This document shows positions 54,277 to 61,454 of a stretch of 64,000 nt of DNA, piece after piece. The DNA comes from Thioalkalivibrio sp. XN279. GTDB lineage: Bacteria; Pseudomonadota; Gammaproteobacteria; Steroidobacterales; XN24. Below the pieces are notes generated by a model. That model had not been told where the DNA came from. It did not search any database and saw only the letters and a list, made by a program, of their open reading frames with translations. Where the stretch lies: NCBI RefSeq assembly GCF_011089885.1, contig NZ_JAANBD010000006.1, forward strand, positions 62,001-126,000, in the 5' to 3' direction. Numbering within the stretch: the stretch's first letter is position 1; each line of letters starts with the position of its first letter. The translations under genes and the position numbers were made by a program.

Positions 54277-55128
54277 TCATGCCGGCGGCCGTAACCACTC
54301 CAGGCGCGGCGGCGGCGCGCCGGGCTGTCGCAGGGCGCCCCACGTCTCCTCGAGCAGTGCCCGCAGGTCGTCTGCCACGCCCCACGGCGGCGCGACCAGC
54401 AGCATGCCGCTGCCGTTCAGGCTGCCCGGGTTGTCGTCGGGACGCACCGCGACCTCGGCGCGCAGGACGCCGCCCGGGCCGAGCTCGGCGCGGTCGAGCG
54501 CACGCTCGAACGGCCGCAGCGCGCGACGATCTTTCACCGGGTACCACGCGGCCAGCACGCCCACGGGCCAGCGTTGCCGCGCCAGCACCAGCCCCGCGAC
54601 GACTCGTTCCAGGTCGTCCGGCGCCTCGTAGGGAGGATCGATCAACAGCAGGCCGCGCTTCGGGGTGGGCGGCAGAAGCGCGCCGAGAGCCTCCCACCCG
54701 TCCCGGCAATGCACGGCGACGCGAGCGTCGCCGCGAAACAGCCGGCGCAGCCCAGCGGCCTCATCCGGGACCAGTTCGCTGAGGACCAGCCGGTCCTGCG
54801 CGCCCAGCAGCCTGGCCGCGACCAGCGGTGAGCCGGGGTAGATCCTGATGCCCTGCTCGTTGCCGGGCAGGCCGCGCACCAGGTCGAGGTAGGTCGCCAG
54901 GGCCGGCGACGCGGGCTGCAGCCGCGCCAGGCGCAGTATGCCGTCGGCCGCCTCGCCGGAGCGGCGCGCCTCCGGCCCGTCGAGCCAGAACGCTCCCGCC
55001 CCGGCGTGCGTCTCCACGTAGCTCAGCGGCTTGGGGCGCAGCTGCAAGCGCCGCAGCAATGCGCACAGCACCGCATGCTTCAGCACGTCGGCGAAGTTAC
55101 CGGCATGAAAGGCGTGCCGGTAATTCAT
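54277..55128 (-). CDS. rlmJ: 23S rRNA (adenine(2030)-N6)-methyltransferase RlmJ
   Basis: A 283-residue methyltransferase. The N-terminus MNYRHAFHAGNFADVLKH is nearly diagnostic for RlmJ; YVETHAGAG is the SAM site and the catalytic motif is DPPYE. It methylates A2030 of 23S rRNA in the cytoplasm. It overlaps the upstream membrane protein gene by four bases (ATGA), so it is translated from the same transcript. Confidence 0.94.
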   Translation of the reverse strand: MNYRHAFHAGNFADVLKHAVLCALLRRLQLRPKPLSYVETHAGAGAFWLDGPEARRSGEAADGILRLARLQPASPALATYLDLVRGLPGNEQGIRIYPGSPLVAARLLGAQDRLVLSELVPDEAAGLRRLFRGDARVAVHCRDGWEALGALLPPTPKRGLLLIDPPYEAPDDLERVVAGLVLARQRWPVGVLAAWYPVKDRRALRPFERALDRAELGPGGVLRAEVAVRPDDNPGSLNGSGMLLVAPPWGVADDLRALLEETWGALRQPGAPPPRLEWLRPPA

Positions 55129-56147
55129 TCCTCGGCGATGCGGATCCGGTGGACGTAGAGCCGGAACGGAGGCGCGGGCTCGGCCAGGAACAGCCCGAGC
55201 CGCCGGACCGCATCACGCCTGAATTCGCGCCCGGACGGCACCGACAGGAGCGCGTCGAGCGGGATGTAGAAGTCGTTGGCCCCCGGGGTCACGCGCAGCA
55301 GGTATTCGGCCCGCTCCTCCGGCGGCAACAGGCGCGAGCTGTCCTCGAGGCGCAAGTTGACGCGGACCGGATGGGCTGCTGTCGAGTACACGTTGAGCAC
55401 CAGCACCGAGAACCCGCTCCAGTCCTTGAACGGCTCGTGCACCATGACGCCGGAACCGGGCGTGCCGTCCGGCAGCAGCAGCGCAACGCGCCTGCCGGCG
55501 CGCCGCGGCCACTCGTCGGGCCCTTTGCCGACGAACAGCTCGGCGTCGTGCATCTCGATGAATGGCTCCTGCCAGGTGCTGGCCAGGTCCACCACGACGG
55601 GGAAAGCGCCGGCGCGCCCGGCGTAGGAGGCCAGCACCGGCCCGAGCGGATTGAGCGCGCCGGCCACCAGCAATGCCCCCAGGACGCCGATGGAACGCCG
55701 CGGCCAGCCACGCAGCCAGGTGTGCTCCCGCTTCAGCCCGCGGTCGAGCGCAGCGCTCAGGGCGAGAAAACCGAAAGCGCCGAGGAAACTGTATACGCCG
55801 CGCACGGGGAACTCGGGATCCGTGCCGGTGACGATCTCGTAGCCGAAAACGAGCGCCAGCACCGACAGCACCGCCACGGCGTAATAGAGGGATCGCTTGC
55901 GAATCCAGCGGCGGCCGATGAGCGCCGTCATTTCCAGGATGATCAGGGCGGCAAAGCCGAAAAAGAATATGTGCCGCAGGTCGCGCAGCGTTTCCTCGAG
56001 CAGGCCGCGCGGCTTGGCCAGGCCGAACAACGCCAGCAGGAACAGGACGATGGCGCCGTACAGCACCATGAGGCGGGCGCCCGGCCCGCGACGGCTGCCG
56101 CGCACGGGCTCGTGATCAGGTACTTGCGGCGGATCCGCGGGATTCAA
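55125..56147 (-). CDS. VanZ-like membrane protein with C-terminal carbohydrate-binding-like domain (copy B)
   Basis: A 340-residue protein. The N-terminal half has about five membrane helices, and the C-terminal half (about 185-340) is a beta-rich domain with WSGFSVLVLNVYS, VRVNLRLEDSS and NDFYIPLD segments, like a galactose-binding or CBM11-type jelly roll. It is a paralogue of the next gene upstream, with the same layout. The function is unknown. It overlaps rlmJ by four bases. Confidence 0.7.
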   Translation of the reverse strand: MNPADPPQVPDHEPVRGSRRGPGARLMVLYGAIVLFLLALFGLAKPRGLLEETLRDLRHIFFFGFAALIILEMTALIGRRWIRKRSLYYAVAVLSVLALVFGYEIVTGTDPEFPVRGVYSFLGAFGFLALSAALDRGLKREHTWLRGWPRRSIGVLGALLVAGALNPLGPVLASYAGRAGAFPVVVDLASTWQEPFIEMHDAELFVGKGPDEWPRRAGRRVALLLPDGTPGSGVMVHEPFKDWSGFSVLVLNVYSTAAHPVRVNLRLEDSSRLLPPEERAEYLLRVTPGANDFYIPLDALLSVPSGREFRRDAVRRLGLFLAEPAPPFRLYVHRIRIAEE

Positions 56148-56188
56148 GGTCGCAGCCTCGGGTGCTTCGGCATCGGTTGGCGCCTACC

Positions 56189-57229
56189 CTAATCCGAGCC
56201 GGGGGCATCGGCAATCCTGTTCGGCTCGCCCTCCAGCCACACCGGGCCGAAGTACAGCGCGAACGGCTCTCCGGGACGGCGACTGAAGAGGATGAACTGG
56301 CTGATGTCGGCGAGGTCGAGGCGCCGCGCTCTCGGCCCGTCAGCAACGGTGTGCAGCGGTATGGAAAAATCGTTCAGGCCGGGCACCACGATGAAACTGC
56401 CGTTGAAGCGGTCGGCGTGATCGCGCTCGCGGTGGGTGTCGTCCACCCGCAGCACGATCTCCACGGGTTGCTCGAGCTCGGACCAGACCTGGAAACGCAG
56501 CGTCGCGTAGGCCGACCAGTCCGGCCATGGCTCGCGCACCGTCACGCCGGGCCACGGCGCGTCGAGAAAGGTGAGGCGGCTCACCTCCCGGCCGGCCATT
56601 TCGTCCCAGCCGTCCGGCGCCCGCACGCTCTCGAGCTCGGACCGCCCGAGGCTGAGGAAAGGCCTCTGCCAGGATGCAGTGAAGTCAGCCAGCAGGGGGA
56701 AAGCGGCGGCACGCTGTGCGTAGTGCCAGGCCACCCCCAACACCGGCGCCAGGGCCAGCGCCAGGGTCAGCGCCGCCGCGACCAGCACCATGCGGGCGGC
56801 GGTCGGTCCGTCCTTGCCGAGCCGCTGCCACAACCCCGGATGCACCGCCGCGGCAATGGCCAGGAAGCAGACCGCCCCGAGGAGGTTCTTCCCGGCGTCG
56901 CCGACATTGGCGTCGCGGCCAGGCTGGAATACCTGGAAGGCCTCGGCCGCGAGGCTCAGGATCGCCGTCGCCAGCAGCGCGATGAGGAAGTCGGGAGGCG
57001 TCGCAACCGCGCTGCCGCGCCGCGCGCGCACGATACGCAACATCAGCAGGCCTGCGACGCCGAACAAGGGCACGTGGCCGATCTCGAACAGCGTACGCCA
57101 GCCGTAGGCGTCCCCCGGCGGCCGCACCAGCGCCAGGAACAGCATCAGGGCGACGATGCCGAGCGCCGGCAGCGCCTGGTGGCGCCAGTCTCGCAACGGC
57201 CTCGGTGGCATGTCGGCGTCCTCGTCCAT
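56189..57229 (-). CDS. VanZ-like membrane protein with C-terminal carbohydrate-binding-like domain (copy A)
   Basis: A 346-residue protein. A VanZ-like helical part (RTLFEIGHVPLFGVAG, AEAFQVFQPGRDANVGDAGKNLLG) covers about 10-160. A beta-rich C-terminal domain (YATLRFQVWSEL, VEIVLRVDDTH, NDFSIPLHTV) follows. The second half aligns with that of copy B (LRFQV/VLVLN, NDF-IPL). VanZ relatives in teicoplanin clusters confer glycopeptide tolerance by an unknown means. The ATG at 57229 was chosen; the frame is open to 57322 without support. It is the first gene of the run through copy B and rlmJ. Confidence 0.72.
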   Translation of the reverse strand: MDEDADMPPRPLRDWRHQALPALGIVALMLFLALVRPPGDAYGWRTLFEIGHVPLFGVAGLLMLRIVRARRGSAVATPPDFLIALLATAILSLAAEAFQVFQPGRDANVGDAGKNLLGAVCFLAIAAAVHPGLWQRLGKDGPTAARMVLVAAALTLALALAPVLGVAWHYAQRAAAFPLLADFTASWQRPFLSLGRSELESVRAPDGWDEMAGREVSRLTFLDAPWPGVTVREPWPDWSAYATLRFQVWSELEQPVEIVLRVDDTHRERDHADRFNGSFIVVPGLNDFSIPLHTVADGPRARRLDLADISQFILFSRRPGEPFALYFGPVWLEGEPNRIADAPGSD

Positions 57230-57281
57230 GTCCCGATTCTGCCGGGGAGCGCCGCCTTTTCGCCAGCCGGCGAATTTCTGA

Positions 57282-57287
57282 TTGACG
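57282..57287 (+). promoter_or_regulatory. candidate -35 element of the amidoligase cassette
   Basis: TTGACG in the divergent gap 57230-57341, 60 bases before the GTG at 57342. A -10 is not clear (GAGATT lies at 18-base spacing). Confidence 0.25.
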
Positions 57288-57341
57288 CGGGACGGTAAAA
57301 GGCGCGAGATTGCGCCCACCACGCATGACCTCTCTGCAGCC

Positions 57342-58064
57342 GTGAGCCCGCACCCCTACCTCGACATCCGCATGCTGCCGCAGCCCGACGACATCAGCTG
57401 CGGCCCCACCTGCCTGCAGGCGGTTTACCGCTATCTCGGGCGGCGCATGGAGCTCGGGCAGCTCATCTCCGAGGTGCCCGGCCTGCCCGAGGGCGGCACC
57501 CTGGCGGTGTCGCTGGGCAATCATGCGCTGCGCCTGGGCTACCGCGCACGCCTCTACAGCTACCACCTGAAGATCTTCGATCCCTCCTGGCGCGGGCTGG
57601 ACGCGGCGGCGCTGGTCGGCAAGCTGGAGGCGCAGCTGCAGCACAAGCACGGCAAGAAATTCCAGGAGGCGAGTCGCGCCTACATCCGCTTTCTCCAGCT
57701 CGGCGGCGAGATCGCCTTCGACGACCTGCGCCCGCGCCTGCTCGACCACGCCTTCGACGCCGGGCTGCCGGTCCTGACCGGGCTCAGCGCCACCTATCTC
57801 TATGACAGCTGCCGCGAGTACACCAACCGCCACAACCGCGCGGTGTACGACGACCTGCGCGGCGAGCCCACGGGCCATTTCGTGGTGCTGTGCGGGCGCG
57901 AGGGCCGCAAGGTGCGCGTGGCCGACCCGTTCATCGGCAACCCGCTGGCAGAAGAGAGCCATTACTACGACGTCGGCGTGGACCGGTTGATCCGGGCCAT
58001 CCTGCTCGGCGTCATGACCTACGACGCCAACCTGCTGGTACTGGCTGAGGAGACCCTGCCTTGA
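57342..58064 (+). CDS. C39-like papain-fold peptidase
   Basis: A 240-residue cysteine peptidase-like protein. The catalytic Cys is in DDISCGPTCL (residue 20), and His and Asp lie in GHFVVLCGREG...VRVADPF (about 185-202), the C39 order. It has no transporter domain, no signal peptide and no double-Gly substrate nearby. The GTG at 57342 begins the homologous part; a TTG at 57282 is the alternative. Its stop overlaps the start of the ATP-grasp gene, so it is the first of four coupled genes. It may trim the product of the two ligases or load a peptide carrier. Confidence 0.8.
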   Translation: MSPHPYLDIRMLPQPDDISCGPTCLQAVYRYLGRRMELGQLISEVPGLPEGGTLAVSLGNHALRLGYRARLYSYHLKIFDPSWRGLDAAALVGKLEAQLQHKHGKKFQEASRAYIRFLQLGGEIAFDDLRPRLLDHAFDAGLPVLTGLSATYLYDSCREYTNRHNRAVYDDLRGEPTGHFVVLCGREGRKVRVADPFIGNPLAEESHYYDVGVDRLIRAILLGVMTYDANLLVLAEETLP

Positions 58065-59533
58065 AGCGCCTGATCGTGGTGGACAACCCGGCCGAGTGGC
58101 CCCTGTCGCGCGGCGAGGACGGCGAGGTGATTTCCGTCGCCAGCTATCTCGATCCTGCCGAGCCCTGGCCGGGACGGGGCGTGCGGGTGTTCAACCTGGC
58201 GCGTTCCTACGGTTACCAGACACGCGGCTATTACGTGTCGTTGCTGGCCGAGGCGCGCGGACACCGGGTCATCCCGGACGTGCGCACCATCCAGGACCTG
58301 AACGCGCCCGGCTTCGTGCGCTTCATTCCCACCGACGTGGAAGAGCTGGTGCAGAAGAGCCTGGCGCGCATCAAGTCCGACGACTTCGTGCTGTCGATTT
58401 ATTTCGGCGAGAACCTCGCGGCCCAGCACCAGGCCCTGGCGCGCGCGCTGTTCCGGCTCTTCCCCGCGCCGTTCCTGCGCGCCAAGTTCGGGCGTGGCCA
58501 GAAGTGGAACCTGCGCGGCGTGCGGGCGCTGTCGCTGGACGAGATCCCGCCGCAGCACCTCGAGTTCATGCACCAGGCGGCGCAACGCTATTTCAGCCGC
58601 AAGCGCTACCCGCCGGAACGCAGCGACCGTTCCCGCTACGACCTGGCGATCCTGGTGAACCCGGAGGAACGCGACGCCCCGTCGGACAGGCAGGCCTTGC
58701 AGCGCTTCGTCCAGGCCGCGCGCCGGCAGGGTTTCGGCGTCGAGTTCATCGGGCGCGACGACTATCCCCGGCTGGCCGAGTTCGACGCGTTGTTCATCCG
58801 CGAGACGACGTCGGTGAACCACCACACCTGGCGTTTCTCCAGGCGCGCCCAGGCCGAGGGCCTGGCGGTGATCGACGACCCGGACTCCATCCTGCGCTGC
58901 GCCAACAAGGTGTATCTCGCCGAGGTGCTCAAGGGCGCCAGGATCCCGATCCCGCGCACGGAAATCATCCAGCGCGGCCAGCGCCGCCCGGCGCTGGAGC
59001 GCCTCGGCCTGCCCTGCGTGCTCAAGGTCCCGGATTCCGCCTTCTCGCACGGCGTCGCCAAGGCGCACACCGAAGCGGAATACCTGGAGCTGACCGACCG
59101 CATGCTGGAAGCCTCCGACCTGGTGATCGGCCAGGAATTCGTCCCCACCGGGTTCGACTGGCGCGTCGGCGTGCTCGAGGGCGAGCCCCTGTTCGTCTGC
59201 AAGTACTTCATGGCACGCGGCCACTGGCAGATCTACAACTGGGCCAGCCGGCACCGCAGCGACTTTTCCGGCCAGTACGAAACGCTGGCCGTTGCGGACG
59301 CGCCGCCGCTGATCGTGCAGACGGCCGTGCGCGCCGCGCGTCTCATGGGACAGGGGCTGTACGGCGTCGACCTCAAGGAGGTCGACGGCAAGCCGCTGGT
59401 GATCGAGATCAACGACAACCCGAGCGTGGACGCCGGCGTGGAAGACAAGGTGCTCGGGCAGGCGCTGTACGACGCCGTCATCGCCGCGCTGCGGCGACGC
59501 GTCGACGCGCGCCGGGAGGGAGAGCGGAAGTGA
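58061..59533 (+). CDS. RimK-like ATP-grasp ligase with RLAN N-terminal domain
   Basis: A 490-residue ligase. The N-terminal RLAN-type domain (about 1-200; LARSYGYQTRGYYVSLLAEARGH in parts) precedes a RimK-type ATP-grasp domain. The ATP-grasp residues are in CVLKVPD and GQEFVPTGFDWR, and the metal site is VIEINDNPS. ATP-grasp ligases make amide bonds between a carboxylate and an amine, often amino-acid tails on peptides. The start is TTG, overlapping the peptidase stop; the stop overlaps the GTG of the GCS2 gene. As I recall, RLAN proteins are usually encoded next to GCS2-type ligases, as here. Confidence 0.87.
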   Translation: MKRLIVVDNPAEWPLSRGEDGEVISVASYLDPAEPWPGRGVRVFNLARSYGYQTRGYYVSLLAEARGHRVIPDVRTIQDLNAPGFVRFIPTDVEELVQKSLARIKSDDFVLSIYFGENLAAQHQALARALFRLFPAPFLRAKFGRGQKWNLRGVRALSLDEIPPQHLEFMHQAAQRYFSRKRYPPERSDRSRYDLAILVNPEERDAPSDRQALQRFVQAARRQGFGVEFIGRDDYPRLAEFDALFIRETTSVNHHTWRFSRRAQAEGLAVIDDPDSILRCANKVYLAEVLKGARIPIPRTEIIQRGQRRPALERLGLPCVLKVPDSAFSHGVAKAHTEAEYLELTDRMLEASDLVIGQEFVPTGFDWRVGVLEGEPLFVCKYFMARGHWQIYNWASRHRSDFSGQYETLAVADAPPLIVQTAVRAARLMGQGLYGVDLKEVDGKPLVIEINDNPSVDAGVEDKVLGQALYDAVIAALRRRVDARREGERK

Positions 59534-60765
59534 ATGCGCGCCGCCGCTGGGGCCTGTTCGAGGTCTTCGGCATCGAGATGGAGTACATGATCGTCGACCG
59601 CGACACGCTCGCAGTGCGGCCGCTGGCCGACCTGCTGCTGCGTGACGCGGCCGGGACCGGCGCCTGGGCGGAGGACGTGGAACGCGGCGCCATCGGCTGG
59701 TCCAACGAAATCGTCTCGCACCTGGTGGAACTCAAGACCAACGGGCCGGCTGCATCGCTGGCGGGCCTGGACGAGGCTTTTCACGCCGACGTGCTCGAGG
59801 CCAACCGGCTGCTCGCCCCCCATAACGCGATGCTGCTCGGCACCGGCGCCCATCCCTGGATGGACCCGTCCACCGAGACGCGCATCTGGCCGCACGGCGG
59901 CGCCGAGATCTACGCCACTTACGACCGCATCTTCGGCTGCCAGGGCCACGGCTGGTCGAACCTGCAAAGCACCCATCTCAACCTGCCCTTCGCCGACGAC
60001 GAGCAGTTCGGCCGGCTGCATGCCGCCATCCGCCTCGCGCTGCCTCTGATCCCGGCCCTCGCGGCCAGCTCGCCGTTCCTCGACGGGCGCTTTACCGGCT
60101 ACCTGGACGCGCGCCTGGAGACCTACCGCCACAACCAGGCCCGCATCCCGTCCATCACCGGTCGCGTGATCCCCGAGCGCCTGTTCACCGAGCGCGACTA
60201 CCGCGGCCTGTTCGAGCGCATCGCCAGCGACATCCGGCCGCACGACCCGGACGGCGTGCTGGACCCGCTGTTCCTCAACTCGCGCGGCGCCATCGCGCGC
60301 TTCGACCGCAACGCCATCGAGATCCGGGTGATCGACATCCAGGAGTGCCCGGCGGCCGACCTGGCCGTGATCGGCGCCGTGGTGGCGCTGCTGCGCCAGC
60401 TCACGGCGGAGTCGACTGCGCCGCTCGAGGCGCAACAGGCATGGCCGGAGGACCTGCTGGCGGACATCCTGCTGGCGGTAGCGAAAGACGGCGACCAGGC
60501 ACGTATCGTGGACGGCGACTACCTGCGCATGTTCGGCCTGCGCGAGCGCGCCATGACCGCCGGCGAAGCATGGCGGCGCATCTGTGAACGCGCGCGCGAC
60601 GACTTCGCCCCGGATGCGCGCCGCACGCTGGGTCGCATCCTCGCCGAGGGCCCGCTGGCGCGCCGCCTGCTGCGGAGCACCGGCACGACGCCCGACCGCG
60701 CCGTGCTGCAGGAGGCCTGCCGGACGCTGGCCGGCTGCCTGGCGGGCAACCGCCTCTACCCGTGA
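59530..60765 (+). CDS. GCS2-type carboxylate-amine ligase (glutamate-cysteine ligase family)
   Basis: A 411-residue ligase of the glutamate-cysteine ligase 2 family. The motifs are FGIEMEYMIVD at the start (metal-binding Glu), SNEIVSHLVELKTN, STHLNLPF, a central LETYRHNQARIPS and the C-terminal FDRNAIEIRVIDIQE. It should join the gamma-carboxylate of glutamate, or a similar acid, to an amine. The start is GTG in a GTGA overlap; the longer frame upstream is a shadow of the ATP-grasp gene. Confidence 0.87.
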   Translation: MNARRRWGLFEVFGIEMEYMIVDRDTLAVRPLADLLLRDAAGTGAWAEDVERGAIGWSNEIVSHLVELKTNGPAASLAGLDEAFHADVLEANRLLAPHNAMLLGTGAHPWMDPSTETRIWPHGGAEIYATYDRIFGCQGHGWSNLQSTHLNLPFADDEQFGRLHAAIRLALPLIPALAASSPFLDGRFTGYLDARLETYRHNQARIPSITGRVIPERLFTERDYRGLFERIASDIRPHDPDGVLDPLFLNSRGAIARFDRNAIEIRVIDIQECPAADLAVIGAVVALLRQLTAESTAPLEAQQAWPEDLLADILLAVAKDGDQARIVDGDYLRMFGLRERAMTAGEAWRRICERARDDFAPDARRTLGRILAEGPLARRLLRSTGTTPDRAVLQEACRTLAGCLAGNRLYP

Positions 60766-61454
60766 CCGCCACGCCCACGGTGCACACGCGCTGGCTGTTC
60801 ACCTGCGAGCATGGCGGGCATGACATCCCGGCGGAGCTGCAGCATGCCTTCAGCGATGCGGCCGAGGAGCTGGCCTCCCATCGCGGCTGGGACAGCGGCG
60901 CCCTGCAGGCCTTCGAGACGCTCGCCGCGGCGCACGCCGACGCGGCGTTCTGCGCCACCACCAGCCGGCTTCTGGTCGACCTGAACCGCTCCCTGCACCA
61001 TCCGCAGGTGTTTTCCCGCCGCGTCCGGGGACTGTCCCCGGCGACGCGCGCCGACATCGCGGCGCGCTGGTGGCAGCCCTGGCGGGCGTCCGTGGTCGCC
61101 ACCATCGAGAAGTGGCTGGCGGAGGGCGCACAGGTGCGGCATGTCTCGGTGCACAGCTTCACGCCGGTGCTGGGCGTGGAAGTGCGCAACGCCGACATCG
61201 GCCTGCTGTACGACCCGGCACGCAGCGCGGAGGCCCGCTTCAGCCGCGCGTGGCAGCTCCGCCTGCGCGCCTGCGGCTGGCGCGTGCGCCGCAACTATCC
61301 ATACCGCGGGGCAGCCGACGGCCACACCACGGCTTTGCGCAGGCGCTTCGGGAAGGATTACCTCGGCGTGGAGCTGGAGCTCAACCAGGCGCTGTTCCCG
61401 CAGCGCGAAGCCGCGCTGCTCGGGGACCTGGTCGAGACGCTGCCGCGCGACTGA
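60762..61454 (+). CDS. N-formylglutamate amidohydrolase-like enzyme
   Basis: A 230-residue zinc amidohydrolase. The metal site is CEHGG (15-19), with VDLNRS, VHSFTP and DGHTTALRRRF following in the family order (FGase/HutG-like). HutG itself is not likely since no histidine-degradation genes are present. Here it is the fourth gene of an overlapping cassette, so it probably removes a formyl or acyl group, or hydrolyses a gamma-glutamyl amide, from the ligase product. The start GTG overlaps the previous stop (GTGA). Confidence 0.87.
   Translation: MTATPTVHTRWLFTCEHGGHDIPAELQHAFSDAAEELASHRGWDSGALQAFETLAAAHADAAFCATTSRLLVDLNRSLHHPQVFSRRVRGLSPATRADIAARWWQPWRASVVATIEKWLAEGAQVRHVSVHSFTPVLGVEVRNADIGLLYDPARSAEARFSRAWQLRLRACGWRVRRNYPYRGAADGHTTALRRRFGKDYLGVELELNQALFPQREAALLGDLVETLPRD

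Follow-up and report, generated by a model that had tools for sequence, protein, structure and literature searches.

Amide ligases of the GCS2 and ATP-grasp families activate a carboxylate as an acyl phosphate, which is then joined to an amine, and amides are cleaved by enzymes of the N-formylglutamate amidohydrolase (FGase) and C39 families. Products of such ligases include cofactors, osmolytes, storage polymers and tails on proteins. Among the systems that contain the RLAN domain, the 2009 amidoligase survey of Iyer et al. reportedly describes an RLAN-ATP-grasp ligase with a GNAT-papain fusion, with GCS2 enzymes and M20 peptidases among its neighbours, and the Pfam text for RLAN (PF14401) reportedly covers the same type, with its GCS2 and papain neighbourhoods. 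In this study, which was based on a stretch of 64,000 nucleotides from Thioalkalivibrio sp. XN279 (contig NZ_JAANBD010000006.1, positions 62,001 to 126,000; hereafter the window), we analysed a cassette of four plus-strand open reading frames (ORFs) at positions 57342-61454 of the window, each of which shares 4 nt with the next. They encode a stand-alone C39-type hydrolase, an RLAN-ATP-grasp ligase, a GCS2-type ligase and an FGase-like amidase, here abbreviated as C39, RLAN, GCS2 and FGase. Co-occurrence, order and spread mark the four genes as a single unit, and we propose, with a probability of about one half, that this unit is a self-contained cytoplasmic pathway that both builds and breaks down a small non-ribosomal peptide or amide, which probably contains glutamate.

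Other described systems resemble the cassette in part. Glutathionylspermidine synthetase/amidase, which acts after a gamma-glutamyl ligase, is a precedent for an ATP-grasp ligase whose bond is reversed by a papain-like amidase; unlike the cassette, it is one fused protein of other families, and the four proteins had no match to its domains at E 0.001. The trio for N-acetylglutaminylglutamine amide (NAGGN) likewise consists of ligases and a hydrolase for a small glutamine-derived peptide, but its enzymes are different ones (an asparagine-synthase-like protein, the GNAT-ATP-grasp protein TIGR03103 and an M42 peptidase), and TIGR03103 is not in the cassette. LysX and ArgX, which work with the LysW carrier protein, have folds that rank with those closest to the cassette ATP-grasp domain (Z 26), whereas no LysW-type carrier was seen at the cassette. 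The double-glycine leader peptidases have the C39 catalytic motif in common with the cassette C39 but carry an ABC transporter domain that the cassette gene lacks. In the YbdK-FGase pair, a GCS2-fold ligase also lies near an FGase-family amidase, although with no RLAN or C39 beside it. To our knowledge, the RimK-RimB locus has no GCS2. According to the available part of PMC12239564, this Pseudomonas rim locus resembles the cassette in its ATP-grasp amino-acid ligase and reversing peptidase; unlike in the cassette, the peptidase is retropepsin-like and aspartic and the substrate is RpsF, and none of the four proteins matched such a domain at E 0.001. The available part of PMC2588565 describes further GCS2-like families, whose partners have a papain fold or are amidotransferases, and argues for peptide metabolites in cases with no small tag ORF. 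The cassette is not named in the available parts of PMC4431377 or PMC2922099, and no study of it was recognised, nor a product for it found, in the full-text literature by titles and abstract starts, a scope outside which most subscription papers lie. It belongs to a predicted, uncharacterised class of systems, to which the strict co-occurrence, the spread of the unit across phyla, the split of RLAN systems into two kinds and the evidence for modules are added here.

The co-occurrence was counted without bias in 321 genomes drawn evenly from the class of the window, its own genome included. RLAN was present in 70 of them, a cassette-type C39 in 15 (E 1e-15) and a cassette-type GCS2 in 16 (E 1e-30), the window's genome being one of the 16. 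All 15 genomes with C39 fell within the 16 with GCS2, and all 16 of these have RLAN (Fisher p 7e-25 for C39 within GCS2 and 6e-12 for GCS2 within RLAN, with kinship ignored; the 16 genomes span 14 genera), genome G272 being the only one with GCS2 and without C39. The original prediction had staked itself on the co-occurrence of these homologues, and this is what was observed. Moreover, in genome G172 the set lies in two halves on two contigs, C39-RLAN and GCS2-FGase, neither of them near a contig end; the joint retention of unlinked genes is strong evidence of a shared function. The order of the genes was followed in a collection with one genome per species (84,980 species) that was scanned with the RLAN protein, from which the best 80 of at least 577 relatives were kept, a sample that leans to near relatives and is rich in Pontibacter. 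In these 80 named loci, tblastn revealed GCS2 in 78, FGase in 64, C39 in 45 and all four genes in 36. GCS2 came after RLAN, at most 400 nt away and in the same orientation, in 78/78 loci having both, C39 was directly upstream of RLAN in 45/45 loci having C39, and FGase began no more than 600 nt after GCS2 in 59 of the 63 loci having both, so that the recurrent pairing of RLAN and GCS2, which had been stated at the outset, and a conserved order among RLAN homologues, which had been put forward as a check, were both borne out. The other four of the 63 are Fibrobacter loci (L058, L060, L061 and L063) with one extra ORF of 434-499 aa between GCS2 and FGase, which is Tyr-phosphatase-like in L058, the one scanned. 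The 36 complete loci belong to Bacteroidota (20), Fibrobacterota (8), Omnitrophota (3), Pseudomonadota (2), Verrucomicrobiota (1), Myxococcota (1) and one genome of no named phylum.

All four proteins scored over the curated Pfam cut-offs, and sequence and Pfam confirmed the genes, families and junctions (TTGA at 58061-58064, GTGA at 59530-59533 and GTGA at 60762-60765) as first called. The first gene (57342..58064, plus strand) encodes a C39-type papain-like cysteine hydrolase of 240 aa (PF03412, 29.5 bits, 7.3e-7, cut-off 22), in which Q14, Cys20, His179 and Asp195, together with the motifs QP..CGPT, GHFV and ADP, were conserved in 59 aligned rows; matches with stops or below 75% of the query length were dropped from the motif alignments. 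Its profile matched the C39 domains of ComA/PCAT (best 3.3e-6), Pfam found no ABC transporter domain in it and no NCBIfam model matched at E 0.001. A second, stand-alone C39 gene of the cassette type lies beside an ankyrin-repeat ORF in genome G344 (L188:4369-5747, minus strand). The second gene (58061..59533, plus strand) encodes an RLAN domain (residues 27-172; PF14401, 150.6 bits, 3.3e-44, cut-off 25) fused to a RimK/LysX-like ATP-grasp ligase (about residues 193-483; PF08443, 23.8 bits, 3.9e-5, cut-off 21), with E449-x-N451 conserved in 88 aligned rows. In the predicted model (pLDDT 84 for the whole protein), the ATP-grasp part, searched as residues 190-488, matched LysX, ArgX and RimK with Z 25-26 over 260-270 residues. 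The RimK family models stayed below cut-off (TIGR00768, 54.6 vs 143.4; NF007764, 23.3 vs 331), as did the curated NCBIfam LysX model. The RLAN proteins of the 80 loci, chosen as best matches, share 46-68% identity over their length across several phyla, which suggests that the substrate may be fixed.

The third gene (59530..60765, plus strand) encodes a GCS2-type carboxylate-amine ligase of 411 aa (PF04107, 108.1 bits, 6.8e-31, cut-off 21), in which the GhExE motif is kept as G14-I-E16-M-E18 and was conserved in 76 aligned rows. Its predicted model (pLDDT 92) matched YbdK best (1r8g_B; Z 38.0, rmsd 2.8, 349 residues aligned), then plant glutamate-cysteine ligase (GCL; Z 33), followed by other GCS enzymes and PafA/Dop. 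It scored under the curated cut-offs of both YbdK (TIGR02050, 56.1 vs 176.4) and GCL (TIGR02048, 44.5 vs 249.05) and is a subfamily far from either. Since GCS2 and the ATP-grasp ligase score below all the curated NCBIfam models that they match, their substrates are not readable from annotation; going by its fold, the likeliest guess is that GCS2 would add gamma-glutamate. The fourth gene (60762..61454, plus strand) encodes an FGase-like amidase of 230 aa that is presumed to be metal-dependent and belongs to its family by Pfam (PF05013, 98.2 bits, 1e-27, cut-off 28.9), with a profile match to 2odf (Atu2144; 1.4e-31) and with CEH, H127/H131 and E204/E206 conserved in 65 aligned rows; it had no NCBIfam match at E 0.001 and is therefore not assigned to the HutG N-formylglutamate deformylases. 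Going by their families, the conserved motif residues of the four proteins are probably catalytic. None of the four falls in a named enzyme of NCBIfam, and profile searches of the PDB with C39, GCS2 and FGase found no enzyme of known function nearer than the ComA/PCAT, YbdK/GCL and 2odf type matches. All four genes are under purifying selection, with ratios of nonsynonymous to synonymous substitution (dN/dS) of 0.08-0.43 against three relatives (C39 0.08-0.28, RLAN 0.08-0.23, GCS2 0.19-0.31 and FGase 0.25-0.43; dS was up to 1.2 in the most distant relative).

RLAN systems were found to be of two kinds, the cassette kind and a type A with a GNAT-DUF3335 partner. A list of 82 RLAN places was drawn up, with the window's own in both of its parts, and 60 of the other 80 were fetched; 18 of these stretches had cassette partners and 42 had none within the stretch. 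A GNAT-DUF3335-type ORF was present in 40 of the 42 type-A loci (30 on the same strand within 200 nt, 2 on the same strand but farther and 8 on the other strand; of the 40 ORFs, three were short, and domains were checked with Pfam in three), and a search of the other 98 loci gave none. Fusion to GNAT is frequent among DUF3335 proteins, as stated in the available part of PMC10318531. As in the cassette, the RLAN-ATP-grasp ligase of type A has a papain-like partner nearby, DUF3335 being related to the cassette C39 (hhalign 96.9%, E 1.4e-10, 160 columns); unlike in the cassette, this partner is fused to GNAT, no cassette-type GCS2 or FGase lies within the stretches fetched and the RLANs form a separate group. 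The cassette C39 is not such a fusion, since it had no GNAT or DUF3335 match even at E 1. In some type-A loci there is also an amidase-type peptidase, either DUF2817 or M20 (a single example of each was checked). On a profile built from cassette members, which favours such a separation, RLANs with a cassette scored 656-794 bits vs 476-623 for those without, with no overlap. In a quick tree of 93 of the 140 RLAN rows (SH-aLRT support only; named loci one per genus; 12 random rows without a local GCS2, L164 among them, left out), a branch with support 100 separated 61 cassette RLANs and two others from 30 type-A RLANs. One of these two others, L119, lies on a short contig with 575 nt after RLAN, and L086 keeps an FGase.

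The tree and the flanks suggest that the cassette may move as a unit. The family of the window groups with five Bacteroidota RLANs (support 81, which is weak) and not with the RLANs of the remaining cassette carriers in its class. By blastn, which was used instead of tblastx because synteny by the latter was uninformative at high G+C, two congeners share their flanks with the window, and a relative from a different genus of the same family (L177, on one contig with L043) matches only within 57359-61329. In plasmid records, 11 matches to RLAN were found, 7 of them in Azospirillum, and one match to the cassette GCS2, in Legionella adelaidensis, where the genes are named RimK family protein, glutamate-cysteine ligase family protein and N-formylglutamate amidohydrolase and are thus annotated but not explained. 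Phages or plasmids as carriers of the cassette were considered and rejected. Phages gave no match; among viral contigs there were 8 matches, 6 of which cover only the ATP-grasp part, the remaining two being a contig fragment and a match over the full query at 43%. RimK-like ATP-grasp matches without the RLAN part, 35-39% identical to the cassette ligase, lie on IMG/VR contigs (L191-L196).

Two amide-forming ATP-dependent folds beside two amide-cleaving families support a reading in which a bond is both made and unmade. The split of G172 into C39-RLAN and GCS2-FGase suggests two ligase-plus-hydrolase modules, a reading that is favoured because a papain-like partner recurs in type A and because GCS2-FGase recurs with YbdK: an FGase lies within about 1.5 kb of a YbdK-type GCS2 in 4/9 YbdK loci, the window's genome among them. 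In that genome, a second GCS2-fold gene, which is of the YbdK type (518 bits), stands beside another FGase-family gene (C28, L185:4476-6474, minus strand); it is about 25% identical to the cassette GCS2 over 193 residues. The original prediction was of an operon that builds a gamma-glutamyl or amino-acid conjugate and of hydrolases that deprotect or trim it, which is plausible and in part supported. The four genes proved to be one unit, whereas the split in G172 fits two modules better than one linear route of building and then trimming. In the scheme that we infer, including every substrate, the order of the reactions, the direction of the hydrolases and the product, GCS2 with Mg-ATP would convert the gamma-carboxylate of glutamate, or of a near analogue, to an acyl phosphate for coupling to an amine, and the RLAN-ATP-grasp ligase would activate a second carboxylate likewise and add a further amine or amino acid in the manner of RimK, LysX and ArgX. 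The FGase-like enzyme would hydrolyse an amide of the N-acyl-glutamate type, and the C39-like enzyme would hydrolyse (or transfer) the bond formed by RLAN. The pool of the product would then be set by two pairs, C39 with RLAN and GCS2 with FGase.

Several observations weigh against this proposal. Glutamate as the substrate of GCS2 is itself a deduction, all the curated NCBIfam ligase models being below cut-off. Neither hydrolase is constant at the locus: C39 is absent from 35/80 named loci, 26 of the 35 being Flavobacteriaceae, and FGase from 16/80, although three of these 16 contigs end in or just past GCS2. Genome G272 carries RLAN-GCS2 only, with no FGase found within 14 kb. The pairing of GCS2 with FGase is no rule either, as no FGase was seen beside YbdK in 5/9 loci (two of the five touch a contig edge) and none is annotated beside YbdK on three plasmids. 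Additionally, among the 20 neighbours scanned, there was no conserved transporter or sensor that would point to a small-molecule role.

The absence of a carrier, a thioester enzyme and a regulator, which had been stated at the outset, holds for the ORFs of 57342-61454, and its extension to the surroundings is supported as far as carriers and precursors are concerned. The small-ORF set comprised 4,225 ORFs (20-110 aa) lying no farther than 2 kb from 95 cassette loci and the window, leaving out those that lie half or more inside cassette genes. They formed 506 families, 47 of which carry at least two phylum labels; many of the 47 are trivial, since the window, unassigned genomes and Pseudomonadota each had a label of their own and since L043 and L177 belong to a single contig. 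The sole three-label family among those listed (10 ORFs, 9 loci) was rejected as a precursor, being antisense to, or just 5' of, the C39 start. The Bacteroidota families that also hold L155 were rejected as well, being antisense to a gene for a GNAT-amidase fusion. No precursor or carrier candidate was thus present among the small-ORF families listed, in which GG motifs were not searched, and a 6-codon ORF that overlaps the C39 start in the window was discarded as it is not kept in a congener.

A conserved fifth gene was likewise sought and rejected, as most neighbours looked lineage-specific (a TonB receptor, a Tyr-phosphatase-like ORF and a major facilitator superfamily protein, one example each). 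In four Marinilabiliaceae-type loci (L068, L070, L074 and L101), one gene family follows the cassette, which is a TonB-dependent receptor in L068, the one scanned. The exception is the fusion of GNAT with a carbon-nitrogen hydrolase, which adjoins 6/95 cassettes of two phyla and 0/45 other RLAN loci and is absent from the window's cassette. Its carriers are five Bacteroidota (four upstream and one downstream) and genome G086 of the window's class (loci L155, L097, L106, L107, L108 and L083), and in G086 it lies 11 nt before C39 (L155:6342-7898, minus strand). The best NCBIfam model of the fusion is N-carbamoylputrescine amidase, at 48-77 bits against a cut-off of 410, and the fusion is possibly an accessory fifth enzyme. 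The GCS2-FGase half of G172 (L187:6820-8835, minus strand) is preceded by an arginase/agmatinase-family gene, 6 nt separating the ORFs, and by a 294-aa protein without a Pfam match. The arginase-family neighbour possibly hints at a guanidino or amine substrate; together with the fusion it provides weak hints of the substrate and, equally weakly, makes the conjugation of an amine or polyamine a candidate chemistry.

An osmolyte was also considered. Ectoine synthase (E 0.001) was found in 18/70 RLAN genomes vs 27/251 others (p 0.003) and NAGGN synthase (over cut-off) in 7/70 vs 4/251 (p 0.003), both with kinship ignored. However, the ectoine signal stems from RLAN genomes without the cassette (18/54) as opposed to 0/16 cassette genomes, and NAGGN synthase in 2/16 cassette genomes was not significant (p 0.10); the enrichment is no evidence for the cassette, and the idea was set aside. 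In the window's genome, the NAGGN trio appears to be present on another contig (C25, L186:3397-8246, plus strand), with TIGR03103 at 902 bits and with asparagine-synthase-like and M42-like ORFs recognised by eye. Going further than a peptide or amide in general, the product could tentatively be a new, widely shared small molecule, such as a di- or tripeptide with a gamma-glutamyl cap or, comparable to glutathionylspermidine, a conjugate of a peptide with a polyamine, that acts as an osmolyte, redox buffer, nitrogen reserve or signal; its genes would pass between phyla as a four-gene unit, and the RLAN-plus-papain core would take either of two interchangeable N-caps, gamma-glutamyl by GCS2 or acetyl by GNAT. 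This more specific picture is possible, though we would sooner doubt it than rely on it.

Among the alternatives, a reversible modification of protein tails, in which the RLAN-ATP-grasp ligase would extend a C-terminus or side chain of a cellular protein with amino acids, like RimK on ribosomal protein S6, GCS2 would cap the tail and the hydrolases would remove it, like RimB, is unlikely but deserves attention. LysX, ArgX and RimK, the nearest in fold to the ATP-grasp domain, act on protein C-termini. A ligase plus a protease follows the logic of RimK/RimB in the available part of PMC12239564, and PafA/Dop, whose fold is related to GCS2, adds and removes a protein tag according to that of PMC2588565. 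However, no conserved small substrate protein was seen among the small ORFs listed at cassette loci, the RimK equivalog model reached only 23.3 against a cut-off of 331 and Pfam found no aspartic-protease domain in the four proteins. In a salvage or catabolic route comparable to polyamine and alkylamine breakdown, GCS2 would gamma-glutamylate an amine for its protection or targeting, later enzymes would process it and the hydrolases would free the glutamate; FGase relatives serve in histidine catabolism. The arginase/agmatinase-family gene 6 nt before GCS2-FGase in G172 and the GNAT-amidase fusion by 6/95 cassettes, with its best model below cut-off, fit this route, but the arginase neighbour occurs in one genome only, the 20 neighbours scanned held no oxidases, dehydrogenases or transporters common to the lineages and a second ligase would be unexpected, which makes the route decidedly improbable. 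Glutathione synthesis pairs a GCS2-type ligase with an ATP-grasp enzyme (GshB), and plant GCL is similar to the predicted GCS2 structure (Z 33), so that GCS2 could form gamma-Glu-Cys or an analogue to which the ATP-grasp ligase would add a third residue. Such a low-molecular-weight thiol is a remote prospect, as the GCL equivalog model reached 44.5 bits against 249, the ATP-grasp domain is nearest to LysX/RimK and D-Ala ligases among the listed structures and two hydrolases would be left unexplained. A ribosomally synthesised and modified or carrier-borne product, with C39 cutting a double-glycine leader and the ligases modifying the core, as C39 enzymes do with GG leaders elsewhere and as ATP-grasp ligases do in making graspetides (available part of PMC8939145), is the least credible, the C39 gene having no ABC transporter domain and the sole three-label small-ORF family among those listed, in which GG motifs were not searched, being antisense to the C39 start.

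The four cassette genes stand alone, with a divergent neighbour upstream and a convergent one downstream. The former has a VanZ-like Pfam match below cut-off and is separated by about 110 nt, counted to its candidate start; the latter is a MAPEG gene at a distance of 18 nt. The region 5' of the cassette (55125-57322, minus strand) holds two adjoining genes of similar layout (340 and 377 aa), one of them weakly VanZ-like, with no clear Pfam family, which are possibly paralogues. A possible promoter and leader of the cassette (57282..57316, plus strand), with TTGAC and GGCGC-GAGATN-GCGCC, was recognised by eye in the window and the congener L175 only; the hairpin-like GGCGC-GAGATT-GCGCC at 57301-57316 lies 3' of TTGACG and has one change in L175, likewise 5' of C39. 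An in-frame TTG at 57282 would add 20 codons to the C39 gene if used as the start, but GTG at 57342 is the likelier start because this TTG sits within the promoter-like TTGACG.

The four genes, which have no carrier, could be co-expressed in E. coli, and Pontibacter, Nafulsella and Natronoflexus are cultured carriers, which makes the proposed function directly testable. A compact unit that is complete in six named phyla points to an unrecognised and widespread metabolite or modification.

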